Positions 5,650-19,043 of a stretch of DNA of 49,011 nucleotides are shown piece by piece (positions within the stretch are counted from its first letter, which is position 1; every line of letters begins with the position of its first letter). The DNA is from Opitutaceae bacterium (GTDB lineage: Bacteria > Verrucomicrobiota > Verrucomicrobiia > Opitutales > Opitutaceae). Under the pieces are notes generated by a model that was given only the letters and a program-made list of their open reading frames with translations, did not search any database and was not told the origin of the DNA. The stretch is taken from contig JAUSID010000228.1 of the NCBI GenBank assembly GCA_030648295.1, positions 1-49,011 of the forward strand, read 5' to 3'. The translations under genes were made by a program, and so were the position numbers.

Positions 5650-8214
5650 ATGAAACTACCCGCACCCCTCAAAGCACTGGTGGGCGGCCTGCTAGTGTTG
5701 AGTCCTGCCTTGGGCCACGCTCAGACTACGGCGACCACCGACCCCAGCAAATCGGATCCGATCCAGATGGAGGCCTTCAGTGTGACCGAACTGAAGGCGT
5801 TCTCGGATCAGGCGATCCCCGGCAAGACTCCGGTGGCATTCACGGAGCTGGGCAAACAGACAATTGCGGAGGAGCTTGGCTCCCGCGACATCCCGCTGGT
5901 GCTGAACGCCGGTCCTTCCGTGTTTTCCACCACCGACAGTGGCGGGGCGGGCGACGCGCGCGTCAACGTGCGCGGCTTCAATCAGCGCAACGTCTCCATT
6001 CTGATCAACGGGGTGCCGACCAACGACATCGAGAACGGTTGGTTGTATTGGTCAAACTGGGACGGGTTGGGGGACGTCAGCACGGCGATCCAGCTCCAGC
6101 GCGGCCTGAGCAACGTGGTGCTGCCGACCCCCTCGATCGGCGGAACGATGAACATCATCTCGGATCCCGCGGAAGCCCGCCGCGGGTTTTCCCTCAAGGC
6201 GGAGGTGGGCAGTGACGACTTCTACAAGTTCACGGGCGTCTACAGCACCGGGCTGATCGATGACCGGGTGGCCATCACGGTGGGTGGCGTCGCCAAGGAG
6301 GGAGAAGGGTACGTGCAGGGCACGTGGACCAAGGGATATGGCTACTATCTGGCCGCCCTCTGGAAAATGAGTCCCCGGAATCGGTTCGAGTTTTTCTGGA
6401 TCGGGGCGCCGCAGCGTCATGGTCAGCGCACGTTTGCCTCGAATATCGCGGCCTATGACACCGGCTACGCGCGGAGCCTCGGATACAGTGAGGCGGAAAT
6501 CGCGGCGGCGCTGGCCGTCGGGCCCGTGAATGCCGGACAGGATTTCAACCCCAATTATGCGCCGGTGAGCCCGAGCTACGCCGGCCAGCAGTATTATTGG
6601 GAGGAGCTTCACCCACGCGAGAAAGCCGGGTTCCTGAACGAGCGGGAAAACTACTTCCATAAACCGCAGGCAAATCTGAACTGGTACGCGAACCTGAGCA
6701 GCCAGCTGAAGGTGACGACTGTGTTTTACTATTCGGGAGGCCGTGGGGGCGGCGCCGGGACGCTTAACAACGGGTCGAGCAGTGATGCGTTCGGCCGTTA
6801 CCCGAACAGCGATCCCCGCTGGGGCAGCAACATCAACTGGGACGCGACGATCGCGAGCAACGCGGGATCGAGAAACGCCCGTGGCGGCGCGAAGACCCCG
6901 GGCCGGTCGCTCGGCATCCTGCGCAATAGTGTCAACAACCAGGATCAATTCGGCATCGTGTCGAAGGCGGTGTACAAGCTGAGCGACGTCCTGACGCTCA
7001 CGGGCGGGTTCGACTGGCGGACCGCGGAAATCCATCACTTCCGCGAGGTGCGCGACCTGTTGGGTGGCGAGTACTACCTCCCGACGACGGCCCAAGTCAG
7101 CGAGTTTTTGAGCACGGGCGCGAGCACGCAGCTGCGACTCGGCGACAAAGTCGATTACAACAACACGAACACCGTCGATTGGCTGGGCACGTTCGCGCTG
7201 GCGCAATATGAGCAAGGCCCTGTCACCGCGTTCGGCGTGTACGGCTATTCGGTCATCGACTATTCGTACGTCGATCACTTCCGGCGCGCGGCACCCGGAA
7301 GCAATCAGGCGATGTCATTGGACTCCGGGTGGATCGACGGCCATCAAATCAAGGGCGGCCTCCGCTACGCGTTCAACGATGGCTTCAGCGCCTTCGTGAA
7401 CGCCGGCTGGGTCTCCAAGGTGCCGATCTTCGATGGCGCGATCAACGACATCGTGGGACAGAAGGTCGAAACGGAGAACGAGACGTTCAAGTCCGCGGAA
7501 GCGGGATTCCGCTACGTGACGCGCGACCAGAAGTTCAACGTCAACGCGAACTACTACTACACCGAGTGGCGTGAGCGCACGGTTTCGCTCGTGAACGAAC
7601 AGGCGGATACGATCACGTACCTGCGCGGCATCAACTCGAACTACGCTGGCGTCGAACTCGAGTCGGCGTGGCAGCCGAACACGTGGATCCGTTTCGACGC
7701 CGCCGCCTCGATTGGAAACTGGTACTACTTGAGCGATGTTCCGGCTGAGACCTATCGCATCAGCAGTGGCGACCAGGTGCCCACCAGCGCCGTTCTTTAT
7801 ATATCGAGCCTGAAGGTCGGTGATGCGCCGCAGACCCAGTACGCCTACGCGGTGACGGCATTTCCGACGAAGGGATTATCCGTGAAGTTGCAGGGCCGTT
7901 CCTACGCGCGGTATTGGTCCGATTACCTGCCCGACAGCCGCCAAAGTGCGAGCGATCGCGGCCAGCCGTGGAGGATTCCAAACTATTCGGTTTTCGATTT
8001 GCACGTGAATTACCGCCTCCCGCTAGGCGACCGCTCGAACGTCAGCCTGTTCGCCCACGTGTTCAACTTGTTCGACGAGACGTATGTGTCGGACGCGACG
8101 GACAACAGTTCGTTCGAGGCAATCCGAACTGCTCCGTCGCACAGTGCGCAGCGTGCCGAGGTGTTCCTCGCCCCGCCGCTCAAGTTCAATCTGGGGGCAA
8201 GGATATTGTTCTGA
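5650..8214 (+). CDS. TonB-dependent outer-membrane receptor (854 aa)
   Basis: An outer-membrane beta-barrel for energised uptake of an unknown ligand. A signal peptide (residues 1-25, cleavage near GHAQT) is followed by a short linker with MEAFSV and a plug domain: TELGKQTIAEELGSRDIPLV, then DARVNVRGFNQRNVSILING, then GGTMNIIS. The long barrel of aromatic, alternating strands ends in Phe (LKFNLGARILF), as outer-membrane proteins do. It lies divergent from the ECF sigma gene, a pairing that could mean control by it, but the usual anti-sigma is absent. Size fits a typical carbohydrate or siderophore receptor. No SusD-like gene adjoins it. The ligand cannot be told from sequence. Confidence 0.93.
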   Translation: MKLPAPLKALVGGLLVLSPALGHAQTTATTDPSKSDPIQMEAFSVTELKAFSDQAIPGKTPVAFTELGKQTIAEELGSRDIPLVLNAGPSVFSTTDSGGAGDARVNVRGFNQRNVSILINGVPTNDIENGWLYWSNWDGLGDVSTAIQLQRGLSNVVLPTPSIGGTMNIISDPAEARRGFSLKAEVGSDDFYKFTGVYSTGLIDDRVAITVGGVAKEGEGYVQGTWTKGYGYYLAALWKMSPRNRFEFFWIGAPQRHGQRTFASNIAAYDTGYARSLGYSEAEIAAALAVGPVNAGQDFNPNYAPVSPSYAGQQYYWEELHPREKAGFLNERENYFHKPQANLNWYANLSSQLKVTTVFYYSGGRGGGAGTLNNGSSSDAFGRYPNSDPRWGSNINWDATIASNAGSRNARGGAKTPGRSLGILRNSVNNQDQFGIVSKAVYKLSDVLTLTGGFDWRTAEIHHFREVRDLLGGEYYLPTTAQVSEFLSTGASTQLRLGDKVDYNNTNTVDWLGTFALAQYEQGPVTAFGVYGYSVIDYSYVDHFRRAAPGSNQAMSLDSGWIDGHQIKGGLRYAFNDGFSAFVNAGWVSKVPIFDGAINDIVGQKVETENETFKSAEAGFRYVTRDQKFNVNANYYYTEWRERTVSLVNEQADTITYLRGINSNYAGVELESAWQPNTWIRFDAAASIGNWYYLSDVPAETYRISSGDQVPTSAVLYISSLKVGDAPQTQYAYAVTAFPTKGLSVKLQGRSYARYWSDYLPDSRQSASDRGQPWRIPNYSVFDLHVNYRLPLGDRSNVSLFAHVFNLFDETYVSDATDNSSFEAIRTAPSHSAQRAEVFLAPPLKFNLGARILF

Positions 8215-8245
8215 CGCACCATCGATCGGCATAGCCCAAAGTCAG

Positions 8246-8270
8246 GCGGCCTGGCCCCAGGCCGCTTTTT
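8246..8270 (+). terminator. Rho-independent terminator of the receptor gene
   Basis: A 9-bp stem, GCGGCCTGG with CCAGGCCGC around a CC loop, is followed by TTTTT, 31 bases after the receptor stop. It sits between two genes whose 3' ends converge. Confidence 0.85.
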
Positions 8271-8295
8271 GTGCCTGGAGGGATTTCCCACTGAC

Positions 8296-10776
8296 TCAGG
8301 GATCACGCAGCGCCCGCAACCGCTCCAGATTCCGTCGCGCCTCGGCATAATCGGGCTTCAGCGCCAGCGCGCGATCAAACTCACGCCGCGCCTCGTCCCA
8401 GTGTTCCTGCCGCGCATAGGCGACGCCGAGGTTGTGGTGCGACTCGGCGTCGTTAGGCGCCAGCCGGATCGCCTCCTTGAAGTGCGTCCCAGCCTCGGCC
8501 ACGCGATCGAGATCGAGCAGCGCATTCCCGAGCTTGTGGTGCGCATTGGCGTGGTTCGGCTCGAGCCTGAGCGCCATTTCGTAATGTTCGATCGACTCGG
8601 CAGCGCGGCGCGCGGCAGCCAGCGCATTGCCGATTCCATAATGCGCCTCGACGGATTTTGGATTCGCTGCGAGCACGCGCCGATACTCGGTTTCCGCTTC
8701 CTGCGTTCTTCCCGCCAGCAGCAATCCGCCGGCAAACGTCGTCCGGAACTCCGCGTCGTCGGGGCGCAGTCGCAGGGCTTCGCGGTAATGTCGGAACGCG
8801 TCGTCCGGGCGTTGCGCGCGGAGATACGCGGAGCCGAGATTGAAGTGCGCGTCCGCGTGTTCCGGCTGAACTTTCAACGTGGCCTCGTATCGCGCGATGG
8901 CTTCGTCCACCCGGCCGGTGCGGAAAAGAGCCACGCCATAGTTGTACTGGTATTGCGGCTCGGCGGGTTTCAGCCGCACCGCCTCTCCATAATGCGCCAG
9001 CGCTTCATCTGTGCGCCGCAGCTGGCCGAGCACAATGGCAAGGTTGTTGTGGGTTCGCGCTTCGTTCGGCATCAGTCGCAGCGAGAGCTGAAAACTGCGA
9101 ACGGCCTCCTCGAGCTGCCCCGCCTGCATTTGCGTGAGCCCGAGATTGTAGTGGTAGGTCGATTCATCGGGCCGCAGCCGAATCGACTCGGCGCGGTGGC
9201 GAAGCGCGAGATCGTGGCGGCCGACTTCCGCCCACGCTTCGGCCAGGCCCTCGTGCGCGCGCGGATTGTCCGGTCGCTTCGCGACCGTGTCGCTCCACAG
9301 GGCGAAATGGCTTCCGTAGTCGTGGTTGCGGCGGACGGTAAGAATGGCGAACGCGACCACCATCATGATTGCGAGGGCCATGGCCGTGCGTTGCCGGCGT
9401 GGGAGCAAACGTTCAACCAGCAACACCGCGCCCGCCAGCACGGCGGCGAGGGGCAAATACATCCGGTGCTCGACGATCATCTGGATGGTTCCCGGCGTGA
9501 GGGAGGTTGGCGCGAGGATGAGAAAAATTGCCGCGCCGAGGAAACCGGTCGTCCGCCACCCCGGACTTGCGGCCTGCCCCCGCGGTCCAAGCCCGGCAGC
9601 CGTGAGTCCCAGCAGAGGCAGGATGAGCGCCGCATAGGGGACGATATCGCCACTGCGCTGGACCCAGAATGTCCCGTATTCAAAGATTAGCGACGACGGC
9701 CACGCGGCCTGGGCGAGGTAATGCGCGAGCGCCTTGAATTGGGTCAGGCCGTACGCCCACCACGGCAGGCCGACGCCGAGCCCCACGGTGCCGCCCCGGT
9801 TTCCCCCCGTGCTGAACACGAGGAAAGCCAGTACCAGCCAGGTCGCCGCCAGCCCCGCATAATAGCGCCAGCGCCGGCGGAGGGCGGCACGAAATTGCCC
9901 GGCGCAAAAGGTGCGATCGTAGAGCAGCACGAGTAGCGGCGCCGTTGCCATGACCTCCTTGGTCGCCATGCCGAGCACGCACGCACCGACACTCGCGGCC
10001 AGCCAGGCGGCGGGCCTGGATCCCGTTTCGCGCTTGTCACGTAATACGTTAAAATCAGCCCGGGCGACGGGCCCGATCGATCTCCCGCGCGGTGCAATCG
10101 CGCCATCCGACTCCACGCCGCGGATGAAGGTGTAGAGCGTGAGCAGGTAAAAAAATCCCATCAACGACTCGGCGCGCTGGACGGTATAGGTCACGGCTTG
10201 GGTTTGCAGCGGGTGTAGCGCCCACCACGCGGCGATCACGAGCGCGATGCCGTCGCGACTCCGAGATGCCTGTAGCAGGGCATCTGCTTGCAGACGCCGT
10301 GGGATGTACTCGGAATCCGCCGCGGCGCCCGCCAGCGGACCCCCTGCGGCCGACGGATCGAATGGGTCACGGCCCGCTGATTGCCCGATCCCGGCTGATC
10401 TGGCGCTGAAATCGCGCCAGGTCCGCCGCACAATTCCAAAAAGCAGCAGGGCGTTCGCCGCATGGACGAGCCCATTGACGACGTGGTAACTCCAAACTGC
10501 CGTGCCGCTGATCGCGTAGTTCAACGCGAACGACAGATTCAGCAGCGGCCGGCCGCTGACGGTGAGACCGCCGTCGGCGTGGGGCAGCACCACGTCACTC
10601 AGCGGCCAGAGTTTCCGAATCGTGGAGTTGTCCGGGATCGCGAGTACGTCGTCATAAACGAAGGGCGCGTGGAGCGTGTTGCTGTACGCGAGGAGAGTCG
10701 CGACGACGAGGAGGACCGGCCCCACCCAAAGGAGCAACGTAGGCCGGTGGCCGGATGGCGCGGAAGACTCGTGCAT
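8296..10776 (-). CDS. multi-pass membrane protein with C-terminal TPR repeats (TMTC/DUF1736-like)
   Basis: An 826-residue protein with about ten hydrophobic segments in residues 20-490, then nine and a half TPR units of 34 residues to the end (for example ESTYHYNLGLTQMQAGQLEEAV). The N-terminal part has the protein O-mannosyltransferase-like layout seen in TMTC proteins: YDDVLAIPDN, SGRPLLNLSFALNY, YHVVNGLVHAANALLLF, and TYTVQRAESLMGFFYLL. A glycosyltransferase role is inferred only. I chose the ATG at 10776 because the open frame above it, up to 11367, translates repeat DNA into unnatural protein. Two loops carry repeat-like inserts in frame, at 10021-10056 and 10261-10312. Confidence 0.85.
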   Translation of the reverse strand: MHESSAPSGHRPTLLLWVGPVLLVVATLLAYSNTLHAPFVYDDVLAIPDNSTIRKLWPLSDVVLPHADGGLTVSGRPLLNLSFALNYAISGTAVWSYHVVNGLVHAANALLLFGIVRRTWRDFSARSAGIGQSAGRDPFDPSAAGGPLAGAAADSEYIPRRLQADALLQASRSRDGIALVIAAWWALHPLQTQAVTYTVQRAESLMGFFYLLTLYTFIRGVESDGAIAPRGRSIGPVARADFNVLRDKRETGSRPAAWLAASVGACVLGMATKEVMATAPLLVLLYDRTFCAGQFRAALRRRWRYYAGLAATWLVLAFLVFSTGGNRGGTVGLGVGLPWWAYGLTQFKALAHYLAQAAWPSSLIFEYGTFWVQRSGDIVPYAALILPLLGLTAAGLGPRGQAASPGWRTTGFLGAAIFLILAPTSLTPGTIQMIVEHRMYLPLAAVLAGAVLLVERLLPRRQRTAMALAIMMVVAFAILTVRRNHDYGSHFALWSDTVAKRPDNPRAHEGLAEAWAEVGRHDLALRHRAESIRLRPDESTYHYNLGLTQMQAGQLEEAVRSFQLSLRLMPNEARTHNNLAIVLGQLRRTDEALAHYGEAVRLKPAEPQYQYNYGVALFRTGRVDEAIARYEATLKVQPEHADAHFNLGSAYLRAQRPDDAFRHYREALRLRPDDAEFRTTFAGGLLLAGRTQEAETEYRRVLAANPKSVEAHYGIGNALAAARRAAESIEHYEMALRLEPNHANAHHKLGNALLDLDRVAEAGTHFKEAIRLAPNDAESHHNLGVAYARQEHWDEARREFDRALALKPDYAEARRNLERLRALRDP
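10261..10312. repeat. palindromic repeat inside the TPR membrane-protein gene
   Basis: CCGAG and CTCGG bound a stretch whose centre is the near-palindrome GCATCTGC-TT-GCAGACGC. Its translation (EYIPRRLQADALLQASRSRD) falls in a hydrophilic loop between two membrane segments and does not look like the rest of the family domain. It resembles the in-frame repeat in the SUI1-like gene. Confidence 0.5.
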
Positions 10777-10863
10777 CTGCCCTAGGTTGTGTCGCCGCGG
10801 CGGGCAGGTGCAAGCGAGCGGCCCCAGCCAGACGAACCGCAAATAGACCCCCAACTTCTTCAC

Positions 10864-10890
10864 CGCGAATGGACGCGAATGGACGCGAAT
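10864..10890. repeat. CGCGAATGGA tandem repeat
   Basis: Three copies of CGCGAAT spaced by GGA (10-nt period) occur 88 bases upstream of the TPR-protein start. Diverged relatives are at 19681-19709 and, inverted, at 19801-19830. Confidence 0.85.
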
Positions 10891-11300
10891 CAAGACCAGA
10901 CGAGGCAAGGTGGCGGGCCGACGCGTTAATATGGCGCGGTTTTTGCGCGGCGAGGAGGAAGGCTCAGGGCTTTCGATGCGGGCAACCGGGCACATTCGAT
11001 CGGATGGTGTTTTGCGCGTCTCCGTTGAACGAAAGTACTCTGTCTCCAAAAACTCACGACGTACAAAGATGGGTGATTTCCGAGGAAAGGGACCGCCGCC
11101 GCCGGACCCTGTCGCAAAATCGCAAATACATGGCTTGCGGGAATATTGAGCTCCAAAACAGAAGTTCACTCGTCCGCCCTGCGGACGGCTTCGGAAGCGG
11201 GATCGGCCATGATTTCCGAGGAGAGATTTGACGTTGCGGCGGCGAATTACCACGCCGGGCTCGGCAAGCAAAATCAGCGGGAAAAATTCACGACTTCCTG

Positions 11301-11381
11301 ACCACAAACCGATTGACGAACCATGCGGCGACTCCCATGGGTTGTGGTCGCCGCACCCACGGACCACATCCTGTTGTGGTC
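11301..11381. promoter_or_regulatory. GACCACA / TGTGGTC operator-like inverted repeats upstream of nrdB
   Basis: The 7-mer GACCACA occurs near 11300 and at 11362, and its complement TGTGGTC near 11345 and at 11375-11381; 11362-11381 forms GACCACA-N6-TGTGGTC. An 8-bp hairpin (GCGGCGAC with GTCGCCGC, 11325-11354) overlaps the cluster. The spacing and symmetry suggest a dimeric regulator, 120-200 bases before nrdB. The words do not match the NrdR box I know. Confidence 0.5.
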
Positions 11382-11503: not shown

Positions 11504-12589
11504 ATGCAAAAAACGTTTCAGGTCGGTGCCAAGACGTTCGTTCTCGATCAAGCCAAAGCCGAAGCCGCTTTCGCCGCCAAAAAGGTCATCAACGGTCGCG
11601 AGACCATGACGTTCAACCTTCTCCCGCTGAAATACCAGTGGGCGTACGATTTGTATCGCACGATGAAGGCCAACCACTGGGAGCCGGAGGACATCCCGAT
11701 GGGCAAGGACATCGAGCAGTGGCGCGACGAGAAGGTCGTGTCCGATGTCGAGCGCTGGATCATCCGGATGGGCATCGGGTACTTCTCCGCCGCCGAAGGC
11801 ATCGTCGGCGACAACATCCAGCATGTGGTCCGCGAACTCGTCACCGCGCCCGAGCTCAAGCTCATCCTCGGCCGGCACGCGCACGAGGAGAACATCCACG
11901 CCGACTCGCTGCTGTACATGATCGCGTCGCTCGGGATCAATCCGCACGAGTGCGAGGCGATGTTCGAGGACGTGCCGACGATCGTGCGCAAGAATGAATT
12001 CGTCACCCGCATTTCCCGTGCGTTGCGACGTGACCTCGATCTCACGCAGCCCGAAAACAAGAAGCTGCTCGCCAAGAACATTTTTGTCTTCGGTCAGTGC
12101 ATGGAGGGCACGCAGTTCTACGGGCTGTTCGGCATGGTGCTCTCGCTCTACCGGCAGAACAAGTTTCCCGGCATCGGCCAGATGTTCCGCTATACCCTCC
12201 GCGACGAGTCCAACCACATCGAGGTGTTCCGGAATCTCTTCATGGATTTGGTGGACGAGAATCGCGAAATCTGGACGACCGAGTTCAAGGAGGAACTGCG
12301 CGAGCTCATGCGCGAGGCGATCCAGCTGGAAAAGGAGTTCATCCGCGACTGCCTGCCGGTGAATTCGATCGGGCTCAGCGCCGATGACTTTTTGACCTAC
12401 ATCGATTTCATCGCCGACCGCCGGCTCGAGAGCTGCGGTCTGGCCCCTCTGTCGCCGGGCGTGAAGAACCCGCTGCCGTGGCTGGCCGAGATGATGGACA
12501 TCAAGAAGGAGCAGAACTTCTTCGAGGGCCGCGTCACCGAATACCAGAAGTCGTCCTCGCTGAACGTCGCCCGCGACGACGAGCTCTAA
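11504..12589 (+). CDS. nrdB: ribonucleotide reductase small subunit (R2), class Ic-like, Leu at radical position
   Basis: A 361-residue ferritin-fold R2 subunit. It would hold the metal cofactor that starts radical chemistry in NrdA, making deoxyribonucleotides aerobically. Ligands are visible: E98 (SAAEGIVGDN), E129 and H132 (HEENIHADSLLYM), E201 (CMEGTQFYG), E235 and H238 (RDESNHIE). Against the Chlamydia R2 (recalled, ungapped nearby) the first ligand is Glu as in class Ic, and the residue matching E. coli Tyr122 and Chlamydia Phe127 is Leu136. A tyrosyl radical there is therefore impossible, and a metal-based oxidant (Mn/Fe type) is inferred. The C-terminal EYQ...SSLNV region keeps Tyr347 for radical transfer. 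nrdA follows by 237 bases. Confidence 0.95.
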   Translation: MQKTFQVGAKTFVLDQAKAEAAFAAKKVINGRETMTFNLLPLKYQWAYDLYRTMKANHWEPEDIPMGKDIEQWRDEKVVSDVERWIIRMGIGYFSAAEGIVGDNIQHVVRELVTAPELKLILGRHAHEENIHADSLLYMIASLGINPHECEAMFEDVPTIVRKNEFVTRISRALRRDLDLTQPENKKLLAKNIFVFGQCMEGTQFYGLFGMVLSLYRQNKFPGIGQMFRYTLRDESNHIEVFRNLFMDLVDENREIWTTEFKEELRELMREAIQLEKEFIRDCLPVNSIGLSADDFLTYIDFIADRRLESCGLAPLSPGVKNPLPWLAEMMDIKKEQNFFEGRVTEYQKSSSLNVARDDEL

Positions 12590-12826: not shown

Positions 12827-15800
12827 ATGAGCAATCCTCCGTCCCTCGCCCACGACCTCGCGCTCAAACGCACCGTCCACACGCCTGTCGATCAGAAACC
12901 CCATTACGCCTGGCGCGACGTCCTCACCGGCGAAACCATCGAGCTTCCGGCGATCATCCTGCTCTGTCCGCACGGCGAGGAACGGTTCGCGCTCAGCGAG
13001 GTCGCCGACACGCTCGGCAAGGCGCTGACGAACGTGCATCTCGCCAAGGGGGAGAAGGACATTTTCAACGACACCAACCGGAACTGGGTCGCCGGCATCT
13101 GCCGCGAGGTCGCGGCCAACCTGCGGGCGCTTGCGCGCAAGCAGTCGCCGCTGCGCATTTCGCTGAACGATCTCTACGAGTTGATCGAGAAGACGCTCGT
13201 CGACAACAACGCGTACTTCGTGGCGAAGAGCCTGCTCATGAATCGCGCCCGCAAAATCGCGGTCGACCGCGATGCCGCCGCGCAATCCACCCTGCGCGTC
13301 ATCCGTCGCAACAACCAGGTCGTTCCCTGGAGCGAACAGAAGGTCGAAATTGCCGTGCGCAAGACGTTCCTGTCGCTGCAGCGCGACTCGGCGCCGGCCA
13401 TCGCCATCACGCGCACCGTCTCCGAGCGCGTGCACTCGTCGAAGCAGTCGTTCGTCCACATCGAGGAAATCCAGGACATGGTGCAGGAGGAGCTGATGAA
13501 GGCGGGCCACTACAAGGTGGCCGAGGCCTACATCCTCTTCCGCGCCCAACGGGCCGCCGCGCGTGACGCCGGTTTCGAAACCGCGGTGACGGAAAACACC
13601 GACGTCGCCGTCGCGCCGGTCCTGGCTCCCGGCCAGGCCTCGCTCATCGTGGTCAAGAAGGCCGACGGCACGAATTCGTTCTGGGATGGCGCCGACCTGC
13701 GGAAGCGGATCGAATTTGCCCGCATCAACCTCGAACTCTGCCTGTCGAACGACGAAATCGAAACGGAGCTTCGTCGCTCGATCTACGACCAGATTTCGCA
13801 AAAGGATCTCGACGCGACGATCATCCTCAACTCGAAGACGCTGATCGAGCGCGATGCCGACTTTGCGAAATTCGCCGGCCGGATCCAGCTGACCTACATC
13901 TACGAGGAGGTGCTCGGCTGGGACATCATGTGCGACGGGATCGGCGCGTTGAAGACGGCGCATCAGCGCGCCTTCCGGAAATACCTCGAGCACGGCGTTG
14001 CGATCCAGCGGCTGAATCCGCGGCTGCTCGACTACGATCTGGCGAAGCTCGGTGCCGCACTCGATCCGTCGTCGGACCTCGAGTTCGACTTCCTCGGCAT
14101 CCAGACGCTCTTCGATCGGTACCTGATCATCGACAAGACGCGCAAGCCGTCGCGCCGGATCGAGACGCCGCAGTTCTTCTGGATGCGCGTGGCCATGGGC
14201 CTGATGCTCGACGAGAAGGGCGACCGCGAGTCCTACGTCACCGGCCTCTATGAGTTGTACAAGTCGCGCCGGTTCTGCAGCAGCACGCCGACGCTGTTCA
14301 ACTCGGGGACGCTGCATTCGCAGCTGTCATCCTGCTATCTCTACTACGTCGATGATTCGCTCGAGAGCATCATGTTGCGCGGCATCGCCGACAACGCGTT
14401 CCTCGCCAAGTGGGCGGGTGGGCTCGGCGGCTCGTGGACGGCGGTGCGCGGCACCGGTGCGCACATCCAGGGCACGAACGGCGAGAGCCAGGGCGTGATC
14501 CCGTTCCTCAAGCTCCACAACGATCAGCTCGTGGCGGTGAACCAGGGCGGCAAGCGCAAGGGCTCCGGCTGCGCGTATCTGGAAACCTGGCACAATGACA
14601 TCTTCGAGTTTCTCGAGCTGCGCAAGAACACGGGCGACGACCGCCGCCGCACGCACGACATGAACACGGCGAACTGGATTCCCGACCTGTTCATGAAGCG
14701 GATGGAGGCGCGCCAGCACTGGACGCTTTTCCGTTCGAACCAGGTCAAGGATCTCCATGAGCTGTACGGTGTCGCTTTCGAGCAGCGTTACCTTGAATAC
14801 GAGAAGCTCGCGGACGAGGGGAAGATCGTGGGCCAGAAGATCGAGGCGCTGGAACTCTGGAAGAAAATGCTCTCGATGCTCTTCGAGACGGGGCATCCGT
14901 GGATCACGTTCAAGGACGCGTGCAACCTGCGTTCGCCGCAGGATCACGTCGGCGTCATCCACTCGTCGAATCTCTGCACCGAGATCACGCTCAACACGTC
15001 CAACGACGAGACCGCGGTGTGCAATCTGGGCTCGGTGATTCTCGAGACGCACCTGAAGCCCGACGGCTCACTCGATCACGCCAAGCTCCGCGACACGATT
15101 CAGATCGCGGTCCGCGCGCTCGACAACGTGATCGACATCAACTTCTACCCGACGATCGCGGCGAAGACCTCGAACCTGCGGCACCGGCCGATCGGGCTCG
15201 GAGTGATGGGGCTTGCGCACTCGCTGTACCTGCGCGGCCACGCGTTCGCCTCGCCGGAGGCGGTCGAGTTCAACGACGAGGCGATGGAGGCGATTGCGTA
15301 CTACGCGTACGAGGCCAGCTCCGATTTGGCGGCCGAACGCGGCGCGTACTCGAGTTACAAGGGCTCGAAATGGGACCGCGGGCTGCTGCCCCAGGACACG
15401 CTCGACCTGCTGGAGAAGGAGCGGGGAGTGCCGGTTGAGGTTCCGCGCGGCGGCCGGATGGATTGGACGCCGGTGCGCGCCAAGATCGCGAAGCACGGCA
15501 TGCGGAATTCCAACTGCCTCGCCATCGCACCGACCGCGACGATCTCGAACATCACCGCGACTTCGCCCTGCATCGAGCCCACGTACAAGAATCTGTTCGT
15601 GAAATCAAATCTCTCGGGCGAGTTCATCGTCCTGAATCCATTCCTGGTGAAGGACCTCAAGGCGCGCGGGCTGTGGGATCAGGACATGATCGACAACCTG
15701 AAGTACTTCGACGGCGAGTTGAAGGACATCGAGCGGATCCCCGCCGACCTGAAGGCAAAGTACCTCACCGCGTTCGATATCGACCAGAAGTGGATCGTCG

Positions 15801-16153
15801 ACGCGGCGGCGCGGCGGCAGAAGTGGATCGATCAGGCGCAGTCGGTGAACCTCTGGATCAAGACGCCTGACCTGAAGACGCTCTCGCACATGTATCGGCA
15901 GGCCTGGCACGTCGGGCTCAAGACGACGTACTACCTGCGGTCGCTGGGCGCCTCGAACATCGAGAAGGCGACGGTATCGGTGAAGAAGGAGGTGCGCGGC
16001 GCGGTGAAGGAAGGGGCCGACGGCGGCCAGAACAGTGGCGACGCGGGTGGCTCCCACGCGCCGAAGCTGAAAAGCGTTTACACCGAGGCCGAAAAGACTG
16101 CGTGCTCAATTGAAGCAATGAAGAACGGCGGGACATGCGAGGCATGCCAGTGA
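12827..16153 (+). CDS. nrdA: ribonucleotide reductase large subunit (R1), multi-cone class Ic type
   Basis: A 1108-residue catalytic subunit that reduces ribonucleoside diphosphates. The N-terminus has a degenerate ATP-cone-like block (about 30-140), a canonical ATP cone (about 158-245: IRRNNQVVPWSEQKVEIAV), and a third cone-like block to about 345, before the ten-strand barrel. Redox cysteines C503 (SQLSSCYLYY) and C732 (AVCNLGS), the thiyl C717 with N715 and E719 (NLCTEITLN), the substrate motif PTATISNITATSPCIEP, and the C-terminal CEACQ pair (C1104, C1107) are all present. Length and cone layout match Chlamydia NrdA, not the 760-residue E. coli form. The ATG follows a pyrimidine-rich leader without a clear Shine-Dalgarno sequence. 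Confidence 0.96.
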   Translation: MSNPPSLAHDLALKRTVHTPVDQKPHYAWRDVLTGETIELPAIILLCPHGEERFALSEVADTLGKALTNVHLAKGEKDIFNDTNRNWVAGICREVAANLRALARKQSPLRISLNDLYELIEKTLVDNNAYFVAKSLLMNRARKIAVDRDAAAQSTLRVIRRNNQVVPWSEQKVEIAVRKTFLSLQRDSAPAIAITRTVSERVHSSKQSFVHIEEIQDMVQEELMKAGHYKVAEAYILFRAQRAAARDAGFETAVTENTDVAVAPVLAPGQASLIVVKKADGTNSFWDGADLRKRIEFARINLELCLSNDEIETELRRSIYDQISQKDLDATIILNSKTLIERDADFAKFAGRIQLTYIYEEVLGWDIMCDGIGALKTAHQRAFRKYLEHGVAIQRLNPRLLDYDLAKLGAALDPSSDLEFDFLGIQTLFDRYLIIDKTRKPSRRIETPQFFWMRVAMGLMLDEKGDRESYVTGLYELYKSRRFCSSTPTLFNSGTLHSQLSSCYLYYVDDSLESIMLRGIADNAFLAKWAGGLGGSWTAVRGTGAHIQGTNGESQGVIPFLKLHNDQLVAVNQGGKRKGSGCAYLETWHNDIFEFLELRKNTGDDRRRTHDMNTANWIPDLFMKRMEARQHWTLFRSNQVKDLHELYGVAFEQRYLEYEKLADEGKIVGQKIEALELWKKMLSMLFETGHPWITFKDACNLRSPQDHVGVIHSSNLCTEITLNTSNDETAVCNLGSVILETHLKPDGSLDHAKLRDTIQIAVRALDNVIDINFYPTIAAKTSNLRHRPIGLGVMGLAHSLYLRGHAFASPEAVEFNDEAMEAIAYYAYEASSDLAAERGAYSSYKGSKWDRGLLPQDTLDLLEKERGVPVEVPRGGRMDWTPVRAKIAKHGMRNSNCLAIAPTATISNITATSPCIEPTYKNLFVKSNLSGEFIVLNPFLVKDLKARGLWDQDMIDNLKYFDGELKDIERIPADLKAKYLTAFDIDQKWIVDAAARRQKWIDQAQSVNLWIKTPDLKTLSHMYRQAWHVGLKTTYYLRSLGASNIEKATVSVKKEVRGAVKEGADGGQNSGDAGGSHAPKLKSVYTEAEKTACSIEAMKNGGTCEACQ

Positions 16154-16203: not shown

Positions 16204-16719
16204 ATGAAACCTCCGCGATGCGTCATAATCGCCGGGCCAAATGGCGCGGGCAAGACAACGTTTGCGACTGATTTCCTCCCGCGCGAGCGCGGCATTCGAA
16301 ATTTCGTCAATGCCGACCTGATTGCTGCAGGCCTTTCACCACTGGCGCCGCATTTGGCGCATCCGGCCGCAGCTCGACTTTTCCTGCGCGAAATTGACCG
16401 ATTCGTCGCTGCTCGTGAGGATTTCGGATTCGAATCCACGCTCAGTGGGCAGACATATGCGGGTCGGATTCGCAACTGGAGGGAAGGAGGTTATCGCGTG
16501 GAGATCGTATTCTTGTGGCTCCCATCACCCGAACTGGCGAAGTCGCGCGTTTCCGCTCGCGTTCGCCAAGGCGGACACGATGTCCCGGCCGAAGACATCG
16601 CCCGCCGCTACGAGCGCGGTTGGAGAAATTTCCAGCAAATTTACGCGGGACTTGCAGACGCGTGGAGCGTGTTCGATAATTCCGTTCTACCAATTCGTCT
16701 CCTGAAGCAATTTCCATGA
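16204..16719 (+). CDS. zeta-toxin-like P-loop kinase
   Basis: A 171-residue single-domain NTPase. Walker A is GPNGAGKTT at residues 11-19; FVNADLIAAGLSP and FESTLSG match the substrate-binding and acidic motifs of the zeta-toxin/AAA_33 family, whose best-known members phosphorylate UDP-N-acetylglucosamine. Arg-rich helices (SRVSARVRQGGHDVPAEDIARRYERGW) fit the lid. It is the first gene of an apparent accessory block and overlaps the next small gene by 4 bases (ATGA), so the two are probably co-translated. Whether it is toxic or only a kinase cannot be told. No epsilon-type antitoxin is present, but the overlapping small protein may fill that place. Confidence 0.85.
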   Translation: MKPPRCVIIAGPNGAGKTTFATDFLPRERGIRNFVNADLIAAGLSPLAPHLAHPAAARLFLREIDRFVAAREDFGFESTLSGQTYAGRIRNWREGGYRVEIVFLWLPSPELAKSRVSARVRQGGHDVPAEDIARRYERGWRNFQQIYAGLADAWSVFDNSVLPIRLLKQFP

Positions 16720-17042: not shown

Positions 17043-19043
17043 ATGGGCGCACTCGACGAACACCGGCTGCAATCGCGCGCCTGGTATTCTGCTCCCATTC
17101 ATGACTTCCTGACGGCCGATCAAAATGCCGTGCTTGGCGAACTGGTGCGACGGTGCGAATTTGTCGTCCTCCCGTCCCAGCGCGACACGTGGATTGCGCA
17201 GATCGAAATCCTGCGCACCGAACTCGTCGGTATATCTGGATTCCTGTTCCTGGAATTCAATATTCCGCGCATGGGCCGCCGGGTCGATGCTGTCCTCCTC
17301 ATCGATTCCGTTATCGTGCTTATTGAATTCAAGGTCGGCGAATCCGCGTTCAACACCGCGGCGATTGATCAGGTATGGGACTACGCCCTCGACCTTAAGA
17401 ATTTCCACGAAGCCAGCCATGCCGCGACCATCATCCCGGTTCTCGTGGCAACGGAATCACCTTTATCGGCACCATTGCAGCTGCGGGCTGATGCCGACGG
17501 TGTGTATCATCCAGTCTGCGTAAATTGCGGCGGAATAGGCGCGGTTTTGAATGCGGCGCGGCAGTTGAGGGAGGGCGGAGTCACGCACGGGGCTGATTGG
17601 GCACAAGCCCCCTATCACCCGACGCCCACCATCATTGAGGCCGCAAGGGCTCTCTATGCTGATCACTCCGTTGAAAACATCTCCCGTTCGGATGCCAGTG
17701 CGAGAAATCTGCGGGTCACATCACGGCGAGTTGAATCCTTGGTCGACGAGGCTCGGGCGAAAAACCGGAAAACAATTTGTTTCGTCACCGGAGTGCCTGG
17801 CGCTGGAAAAACTCTAGTCGGGTTGAATACCGCCACGCGGCGGCGCGACCGCAATCAGCCAACCCACGCCGTCTTTCTCTCCGGCAACGGGCCGTTGGTC
17901 GCCGTCCTCCGCGAGGCTCTCACGCGAGACGAATTCGGCCGGCGCAGACTTCAGGGAGAGAGGGTTCGGAAGAGCAAGATCGGGGAGAGCGTCAAAGCCT
18001 TTGTTCAGAACGTGCATCATTTTCGAGACGATGCGTTGTCGACGGACAACCCGCCGTTCGAACACGTGGTCATCTTTGACGAGGCACAACGCGCGTGGAA
18101 TCTGCAGCAAACGGCAAACTTCATGCGGCAAAAGAAAGGGCGTGCGGGCTTCAGTCAGTCCGAGCCCGAATTCCTGATATCGTTCATGGATCGGCACGCC
18201 GACTGGGCCGTCGTCGTTTGCCTGGTCGGCGGGGGACAGGAAATCAATCGGGGCGAGGCCGGAATCGACTCATGGCTGGAGGCCATCAACACATCATTTC
18301 CGCATTGGCATCTGTATATTTCGTCGCGACTGACCGACTCAGAATATGCGGCCGGTCATGCCTTGGAGCGCGTTGGCCGCAATGCAAACGCCCATTTGGA
18401 TGACGATCTGCATCTTTCGGTTTCCATGCGTTCGTTTCGCGCCGAAAATGTATCTGCGTTCGTGAAGGCCGTGCTTGACTGCGAAATCGAGCAGGCGCGT
18501 CGGACGCTGGCACAAATTCGCAATCGTTACCCACTCGTAATGACGCGCGACCTCAATGTCGCCAAATGCTGGGTCCGCGAACAAGCGCGAGGATCAGAAC
18601 GGTTCGGGCTCGTGGCATCGTCGAAGGCCCTGCGGTTGAAGCCCCATGCCGTGGATATCAGGGTCAGTGTTGACCCGGTGCATTGGTTTCTGAATGGAAA
18701 AGAGGATACGCGATCGAGTTTCTATCTGGAAGACGCGGCGACGGAATTCCAAGTGCAGGGCCTCGAACTGGATTGGGCATGTGTAACCTGGGACGCGGAT
18801 CTACGTTTCACCGCCGAAGGCTGGAGTTACCATGATTTCCGGGGGAAAAATTGGTGTCGGATTTCGAAGCCGGACAACCGCACTTATCTCCTCAATGCAT
18901 ACCGCGTCTTGTTGACGCGGGCCCGGCAGGGTATGGTTCTTTTCGTGCCGGAGGGAGAGCCGTCAGACCCGACGCGTTCGCCCGACTATTACGATCCCAC
19001 CTTTGATTATCTTTCCGGTTTGGGAATACCGGTGCTTAAGTAG
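17043..19043 (+). CDS. DUF2075-type helicase with N-terminal PD-(D/E)XK nuclease-like domain
   Basis: A 666-residue protein. Residues about 60-115 carry a nuclease-like core, RRVDAVLLIDSVIVLIEFK with D82, E95 and K97, plus a downstream Q110 (AIDQVWDYA), as in restriction-like PD-(D/E)XK folds. A P-loop helicase domain follows: Walker A GVPGAGKT at 250-257, Walker B VVIFDEAQRAW, GGGQEINRGEAG, and a motif VI-like NAYRVLLTRARQG near the end. This matches the DUF2075/Schlafen-like superfamily 1 group. It probably acts on DNA or RNA in the cytosol. The neighbouring zeta-like kinase makes a defence or toxin island likely, but that is inference. The start is fixed by a TGA immediately upstream. Confidence 0.88.
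   Translation: MGALDEHRLQSRAWYSAPIHDFLTADQNAVLGELVRRCEFVVLPSQRDTWIAQIEILRTELVGISGFLFLEFNIPRMGRRVDAVLLIDSVIVLIEFKVGESAFNTAAIDQVWDYALDLKNFHEASHAATIIPVLVATESPLSAPLQLRADADGVYHPVCVNCGGIGAVLNAARQLREGGVTHGADWAQAPYHPTPTIIEAARALYADHSVENISRSDASARNLRVTSRRVESLVDEARAKNRKTICFVTGVPGAGKTLVGLNTATRRRDRNQPTHAVFLSGNGPLVAVLREALTRDEFGRRRLQGERVRKSKIGESVKAFVQNVHHFRDDALSTDNPPFEHVVIFDEAQRAWNLQQTANFMRQKKGRAGFSQSEPEFLISFMDRHADWAVVVCLVGGGQEINRGEAGIDSWLEAINTSFPHWHLYISSRLTDSEYAAGHALERVGRNANAHLDDDLHLSVSMRSFRAENVSAFVKAVLDCEIEQARRTLAQIRNRYPLVMTRDLNVAKCWVREQARGSERFGLVASSKALRLKPHAVDIRVSVDPVHWFLNGKEDTRSSFYLEDAATEFQVQGLELDWACVTWDADLRFTAEGWSYHDFRGKNWCRISKPDNRTYLLNAYRVLLTRARQGMVLFVPEGEPSDPTRSPDYYDPTFDYLSGLGIPVLK

Follow-up and report, generated by a model that had tools for sequence, protein, structure and literature searches.

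The nrdB gene and its product

This work concerns a class I ribonucleotide reductase (RNR), an enzyme that supplies the building blocks of DNA, encoded in positions 1 to 49,011 of contig JAUSID010000228.1 (assembly GCA_030648295.1, Opitutaceae bacterium), a stretch of 49,011 nucleotides referred to here as the window, and in particular its R2 (beta) subunit NrdB, in which leucine occupies the slot of the radical tyrosine. The nrdB gene lies at 11504..12589 on the forward strand, as do all codons given below, and encodes a protein of 361 amino acids that matches PF00268 with 224 bits in a profile search and passes the NCBIfam model PRK07209 (334.9 bits, cut-off 309). All six metal ligands are present: Glu98 (codon 11795..11797), Glu129 and His132 of the ExxH motif (11888..11899), Glu201 at the head of a stretch (12104..12115) that runs through Thr203 and Gln204, and Glu235 and His238 in a stretch (12191..12217) that starts with Tyr230 and Thr231. 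Leu136, encoded by CTG at 11909..11911, stands four residues past the ligand His132, in the slot held by Tyr122 in Escherichia coli. An earlier note on this DNA had set Leu136 against Phe127 of the Chlamydia enzyme and named Glu98 as the first metal ligand, and both assignments hold: alignment to the Chlamydia trachomatis R2 structure 1syy, together with residue indexing, places Leu136 opposite Phe127 and Glu98 opposite a Glu, where Tyr-type proteins have Asp. The same alignment pairs Trp59, Tyr138, Tyr230 and Tyr347 with C. trachomatis Trp51, Tyr129, Tyr222 and Tyr338, Tyr347 (codon 12542..12544) being the C-terminal radical-transfer tyrosine.

Downstream of nrdB lies nrdA (12827..16153, forward strand), which encodes the catalytic alpha subunit of 1108 amino acids. 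With its ferritin-like R2 fold, six ligands, C-terminal tyrosine and adjoining nrdA, NrdB has the features of a class I R2, and a PF00268 search of the source genome found one R2. NrdA passes PRK07207 (1260.8 bits, cut-off 965) and falls under the cut-off of PRK12365 (1043.6 bits against 1350); its best solved relative is Pseudomonas aeruginosa NrdA (5im3, 994 bits over residues 145-1081). Residues with catalytic roles in E. coli NrdA are present as Cys503, Cys717, two adjacent tyrosines (1035-1036) and, at the C-terminus, Cys1104 and Cys1107. The earlier description of this protein as a multi-cone NrdA stands in part: an ATP-cone at residues 157-243 is clear (74.5 bits), a second is weak and below the cut-off (13.8 bits), and the N-terminal residues 1-156, tested alone, match no Pfam cone model.

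Occurrence of leucine in the radical slot

Leucine is found at the slot in all 120 listed homologues of NrdB (119 by pattern, P0042 by direct reading), and Leu136 is not the product of chance or error. The organisms named among these homologues are Opitutaceae, Cephaloticoccus, Synoicihabitans, Actomonas and, once, Verrucomicrobiota, in agreement with the Opitutaceae-like host that had been proposed. When a 49%-identical Leu protein was used as the query, each of the 120 listed proteins again had Leu at the slot, together with His at position 138. An R2 match was present in 83 of 288 drawn Verrucomicrobiota genomes, and the genes read at 82 of 87 places, the window's included, comprised 63 of the Glu/Leu type (first ligand/slot residue), 11 Glu/Phe and 8 Asp/Tyr, with no other pairing; the five places not read held a 49-residue fragment and four matches with identities near 30%. 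An alignment of 293 rows contained 237 Glu/Leu, 27 Glu/Phe and 28 Asp/Tyr; it was seeded with Leu queries, and its proportions are thus not natural frequencies. First ligand and slot residue co-vary throughout these rows, the exception being one degenerate paralogue.

A contig scan for R2 relatives, of which the best 80 of 578 loci were examined, placed Leu-type proteins in named members of Verrucomicrobiota and in records that bear the labels Rhodothermota (the complete genome of Roseithermus), Armatimonadota, Bacteroidota, Chlamydiota, Actinomycetota and Planctomycetaceae. Apart from Roseithermus, the records from outside Verrucomicrobiota are metagenome-assembled genomes (MAGs), for which mis-binning is possible. 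None of 47 typed viral rows was of the Leu type (40 Asp/Tyr, 7 Glu/Phe), the viral sample consisting of 52 loci that gave 51 aligned rows, four of them not fully typable. Relatives of NrdB in phage (2711) and plasmid (327) records were all below 60% identity, and among the ten such loci read there was no Leu slot.

Some genomes carry more than one R2 gene. In two Opitutaceae genomes (G116 and G207) a second R2 gene stands in tandem with nrdB, in G116 between nrdB and nrdA (tandem loci L052, 5218-6327, about 6435-7532 and 7581-11030, and L040). These second copies keep the six ligands and the Leu, with His in place of Tyr138 and Asn in place of the radical-transfer residue Tyr230. Persicirhabdus sediminis has a degenerate R2 (L139, 220-1434) upstream of a normal nrdB; this protein has lost four of its six ligands as well as the C-terminal Tyr and is reminiscent of the yeast beta-prime subunit.

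Phylogeny of the Leu proteins

In an R2 tree from which seven columns around the slot trait were left out, a single branch sets off the Leu proteins (39 rows, Shimodaira-Hasegawa-like approximate likelihood ratio test 97), and removal of six rows, four of them long-branched and two of them tandem copies, leaves 37 rows with support of 98/93. The NrdA tree separates the 14 NrdAs that accompany them from 17 others (100/100); with five outgroups added and three near-copies removed, 11 such rows are held together at 100/99, and the base of this tree is not resolved. The Leu proteins are one supported clade, called here the Leu clade, to which a separate NrdA lineage belongs. In the R2 and the NrdA trees alike, Phe-type class Ic is intermixed with Tyr-type class Ia of Proteobacteria. 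In approximately unbiased (AU) tests, a single clade of the Glu rows was not rejected for R2 at p 0.239 (61 of 83 rows constrained, the Glu/Phe row L087 being left outside the group) and was weakly rejected for NrdA at p 0.030 (21 of 33 rows constrained), long branches being present in both data sets. The Leu clade was joined to four long-branched Asp/Tyr rows in the reduced R2 tree (99/98) and to one long Asp/Tyr row in the full tree (81); either join is possibly false, and long branches are present among the outgroups.

One protein with Leu in the slot stands apart from this clade. It comes from a Thermomicrobiales MAG (L165, 1375-2496) and has Phe-type surroundings; it lies within the Phe clade beside Rubrobacter (99/98). 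Because it is nested there, Leu arose at least twice, and this protein is a natural control for the pocket. A Phyllobacterium plasmid R2 (L087, 169-1290) is of the Glu/Phe type yet lies within the proteobacterial Asp/Tyr clade, a placement that suggests a further loss of the tyrosine.

Second sphere, other tyrosines and gene order

A comparison of 110 and 124 rows from the two Leu subclades with 42 rows of close relatives, of the Glu/Phe and Asp/Tyr types, reveals 36 signature positions, that is, positions with one residue in at least 95% of both subclades and in at most 10% of the relatives (Leu136 is counted, and at three positions most relatives are gapped). Thr203, Gln204 and Thr231 are among them and are arranged around the ligands Glu201 and Glu235. 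Every Glu/Leu row except L165 has Thr231 (236 of 237), which is replaced by Ile in 27/27 Glu/Phe and 23/28 Asp/Tyr rows. Judged by their spacing from the ligands, Phe205, Phe209 and Thr231 correspond to yeast residues 243, 247 and 269. Those residues, two Phe and one Ile, have been listed as the pocket of the tyrosyl radical (PMC3824934). Position 93 is Tyr (codon 11780..11782) in 234/234 Leu-clade rows and Phe in 27/27 Glu/Phe and 25/28 Asp/Tyr rows; Trp85 is likewise found in 234/234 Leu-clade rows and in no more than a tenth of the 42 relatives. The Leu clade possesses a near-fixed second sphere comprising Thr203, Gln204, Thr231, Tyr93 and Trp85.

Tyr138, which the earlier note had raised as a residue that might take the radical position, is rejected in that role. 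It lies opposite C. trachomatis Tyr129, and it cannot be a common radical site because the 237 Glu/Leu rows are divided between Tyr (111) and His (126) at this position, and because 20 of the 28 Asp/Tyr rows have Tyr here beside a normal slot Tyr.

The Leu clade also differs in gene order. Where nrdA was located within the flank of a Glu/Leu locus (44 of 54), it lay downstream, in beta-alpha order, in 43 cases and upstream in one, which is attributed to L165. Among 26 loci of the other R2 types, nrdA was located in 21 and was upstream in every one of them, and a survey reports alpha-beta as the order of most class I operons (PMC9669993).

Comparison with described classes

NrdB has the two residue features of class Ic, Glu as the first ligand and no Tyr at the radical position. 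A comparison with C. trachomatis NrdB (class Ic; 1syy, 4d8g, 4m1i), to which it is about 39% identical, shows Leu rather than Phe in the slot, Thr231 rather than Ile, Thr203-Gln204 rather than Ile-Phe, a longer C-terminal tail and a separate NrdA lineage; the beta-alpha order found here also contrasts with the alpha-beta order of class Ic in the loci seen. Another solved R2 of the Glu/Phe type is 6y2n. Identity to the class Ia R2 of Proteobacteria is similar (about 38-41%), and the window proteins resemble that group in passing PRK07209 and PRK07207, in their ATP-cones and in the relation of NrdA to 5im3, whereas the class Ia proteins have Asp and a slot Tyr in place of Glu and Leu. The radical Tyr four residues past the first His ligand, as in classes Ia and Ib, is absent.

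The DOPA (3,4-dihydroxyphenylalanine) of class Ie derives from the slot Tyr. In that class, which is metal-free, a DOPA radical replaces the metal cofactor (PMC6754362), whereas NrdB has no slot Tyr and retains all of the metal ligands. Class Id is defined by a Tyr/Glu pairing (PMC8463856), of which NrdB has the Glu and lacks the Tyr. R2lox proteins have Ala at the position of C. trachomatis Phe197 (PMC4118035) and are without the C-terminal Tyr (PMC3824934), in contrast to NrdB, which has Phe205 and Tyr347 at these places. The ferritin-like proteins of class O RNR share with NrdB the occurrence of Phe or Leu in the slot, but their C-termini are short, and their alpha subunit is minimal and lacks an ATP-cone (PMC9531940).

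That class Ic proteins can have leucine in the slot has been published before: the residue has been given as "Phe, Leu or Val" (PMC3267527), and Leu, Ile and Val have been listed with a citation to Hogbom 2010 (PMC3824934). The available passages of PMC3267527 describe Leu-bearing class Ic proteins that are alike in the slot, and name no clade, second-sphere signature, experiment or sequences. Within NrdAz and NrdAq, alpha subunits have been reported that pair with a beta subunit carrying a redox-inert residue (PMC9669993). In the open-access literature, with subscription papers mostly outside its reach, we found no description of the Leu clade, of its Thr/Gln signature or of measurements on it. 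By its residues the Leu clade is class Ic-like, and by its lineage and second sphere it is distinct. The measurements that we encountered on tyrosine-free class I R2 proteins were made on the Phe enzyme of C. trachomatis. Another lineage without the tyrosine and with a pocket of a different build would test what sets Mn/Fe use and the launch of a radical without a phenol, and also whether tyrosine loss happened more than once.

Other ribonucleotide reductases in the genomes

Searches that returned one PF00268 match, one PF02867 match and no NrdD had made NrdB seem part of the sole RNR of the source genome, a view that was dropped after a TIGR02505 search matched a class II-like RTPR gene at G000:C217:19009-21033 (L273; 901-amino-acid frame). 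Its product scores 214 bits over the 862-residue part tested, below the cut-off of 340, possesses an ATP-cone and has 1l1l as its best solved relative; its match to PF02867 is weak (24.8 bits) and was missed by the genome-wide search. Class II-like RTPR genes can escape PF02867. TIGR02505 also matches eight of nine other Opitutaceae genomes searched, with scores under the curated cut-off in every genome. In one of these eight, G160 (280 contigs), the match consists of two weak pieces; its class II gene looks broken (L274, G160:C49), and it has no NrdD and one PF02867 match, so that the Leu-type class I enzyme may be its sole intact RNR. Six relatives lack a Leu-type NrdB; of the families tested, five of these relatives have the class II-like gene alone, and one has both this gene and NrdD.

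Proposed mechanism and alternatives

Since the ligands, the transfer residues and the NrdA partner have been kept and the slot holds no phenol, the oxidant is expected on the metals. NrdB is thus probably a working class I R2 that acts like class Ic, with a metal-centred and most likely Mn/Fe oxidant, a reading to which we give a probability of about 0.72. Class Ic uses Mn(IV)/Fe(III), in which Mn occupies site 1, instead of a tyrosyl radical (PMC8463856), and in C. trachomatis Tyr222 and Trp51 relay an extra electron during activation (PMC4118035); the counterparts of both are kept in NrdB. We infer the identity of the metals, their oxidation chemistry and the roles of Thr231 and Gln204 as follows. 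The six-ligand site would take two metal ions, of which the one in site 1 is most likely Mn and the one in site 2 Fe, and reaction with O2 or peroxide would yield a high-valent cluster, aided by an electron passed through Trp59 and Tyr230. This cluster, rather than a tyrosyl radical, would oxidise NrdA by a path that includes Tyr347 and so generate the active-site thiyl radical. Leu136 would be an inert filler of the tyrosine slot, and the pocket appears to have been refitted, with Thr231 for Ile and with Thr203 and Gln204 next to Glu201. These changes may serve to tune the metal-1 site or to couple it to protons, as a substitute for the absent phenol. The signature suggests that the Leu clade tunes metal site 1 in its own way; that Thr231 forms hydrogen bonds or transfers protons is our guess.

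Four points weigh against assigning a class Ic-like role. We found no metal, electron paramagnetic resonance or activity data for Leu-clade members in the open-access literature. The second sphere is unlike that of the Phe enzymes at Thr203, Gln204, Thr231 and about 30 more positions, and because of this difference the choice of metal is not simply transferable from those enzymes. In the trees the Leu clade is not nested within the Chlamydia-type group; the earlier view of a Leu variant of class Ic is supported in part, by the residues (Glu98 and the absence of a slot Tyr). Lastly, with a class II-like RNR also present, survival of the genome is no proof that NrdB works.

It is possible, if unlikely, that the Leu clade constitutes a subclass of its own, in which the tyrosine was lost independently of the Chlamydia line and the pocket was rebuilt with Leu136, Thr231, Gln204, Thr203 and Tyr93/Trp85; a hydroxyl or a bound water by metal 1 would then replace the phenol in proton-coupled radical initiation, and the metal preference would not necessarily be Mn/Fe. 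It is also unlikely that the oxidant of the Leu clade, though metal-centred, is of a different make (Fe/Fe, or Mn2 as in class Id), with the changed pocket of Thr231, Gln204 and Thr203 as its signature. The near-fixed second sphere and separate NrdA lineage of the Leu clade would be consistent with such a difference, and the structural control of metal choice in this fold has been called far from resolved (PMC4118035).

A reading in which another tyrosine, such as Tyr93, holds a radical or serves as an extra relay we consider improbable. The invariance of Tyr93 and Trp85 in the Leu clade, and the Phe found at position 93 in most relatives, speak for it, but Tyr93 lies five residues ahead of the ligand Glu98 and Tyr is also present there alongside a normal slot Tyr in 3 of the 28 Asp/Tyr rows, and Tyr138, the candidate proposed before, is not conserved. 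Also improbable is a non-catalytic NrdB, whether decayed, a regulatory beta-prime-like partner or an R2lox-type oxidase: the class II-like RNR, the two tandem second copies and the copy without most ligands among relatives would accommodate it, but the intact ligands, transfer residues and C-terminus, the adjacent nrdA, the strong conservation and the single R2 in the genome argue against it, and Phe205 and Tyr347 contradict the marks of R2lox.

Upstream sequence and neighbouring genes

Upstream of nrdB are two TTGTGG hexamers 32 bp apart (11342..11379, forward strand). By the spacing rule for NrdR boxes, they are tentatively regarded as an NrdR-box-like pair. The full NrdR consensus, with up to three mismatches allowed, does not occur in the window; an NrdR gene is present in the source genome, and hexamer pairs 31-32 bp apart were found in 6 of 13 related loci examined. 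Downstream of nrdA lie genes for a zeta-toxin/AAA_33-like protein (16204-16719 of the window) and a Schlafen group 3 helicase-domain protein (17043-19043).
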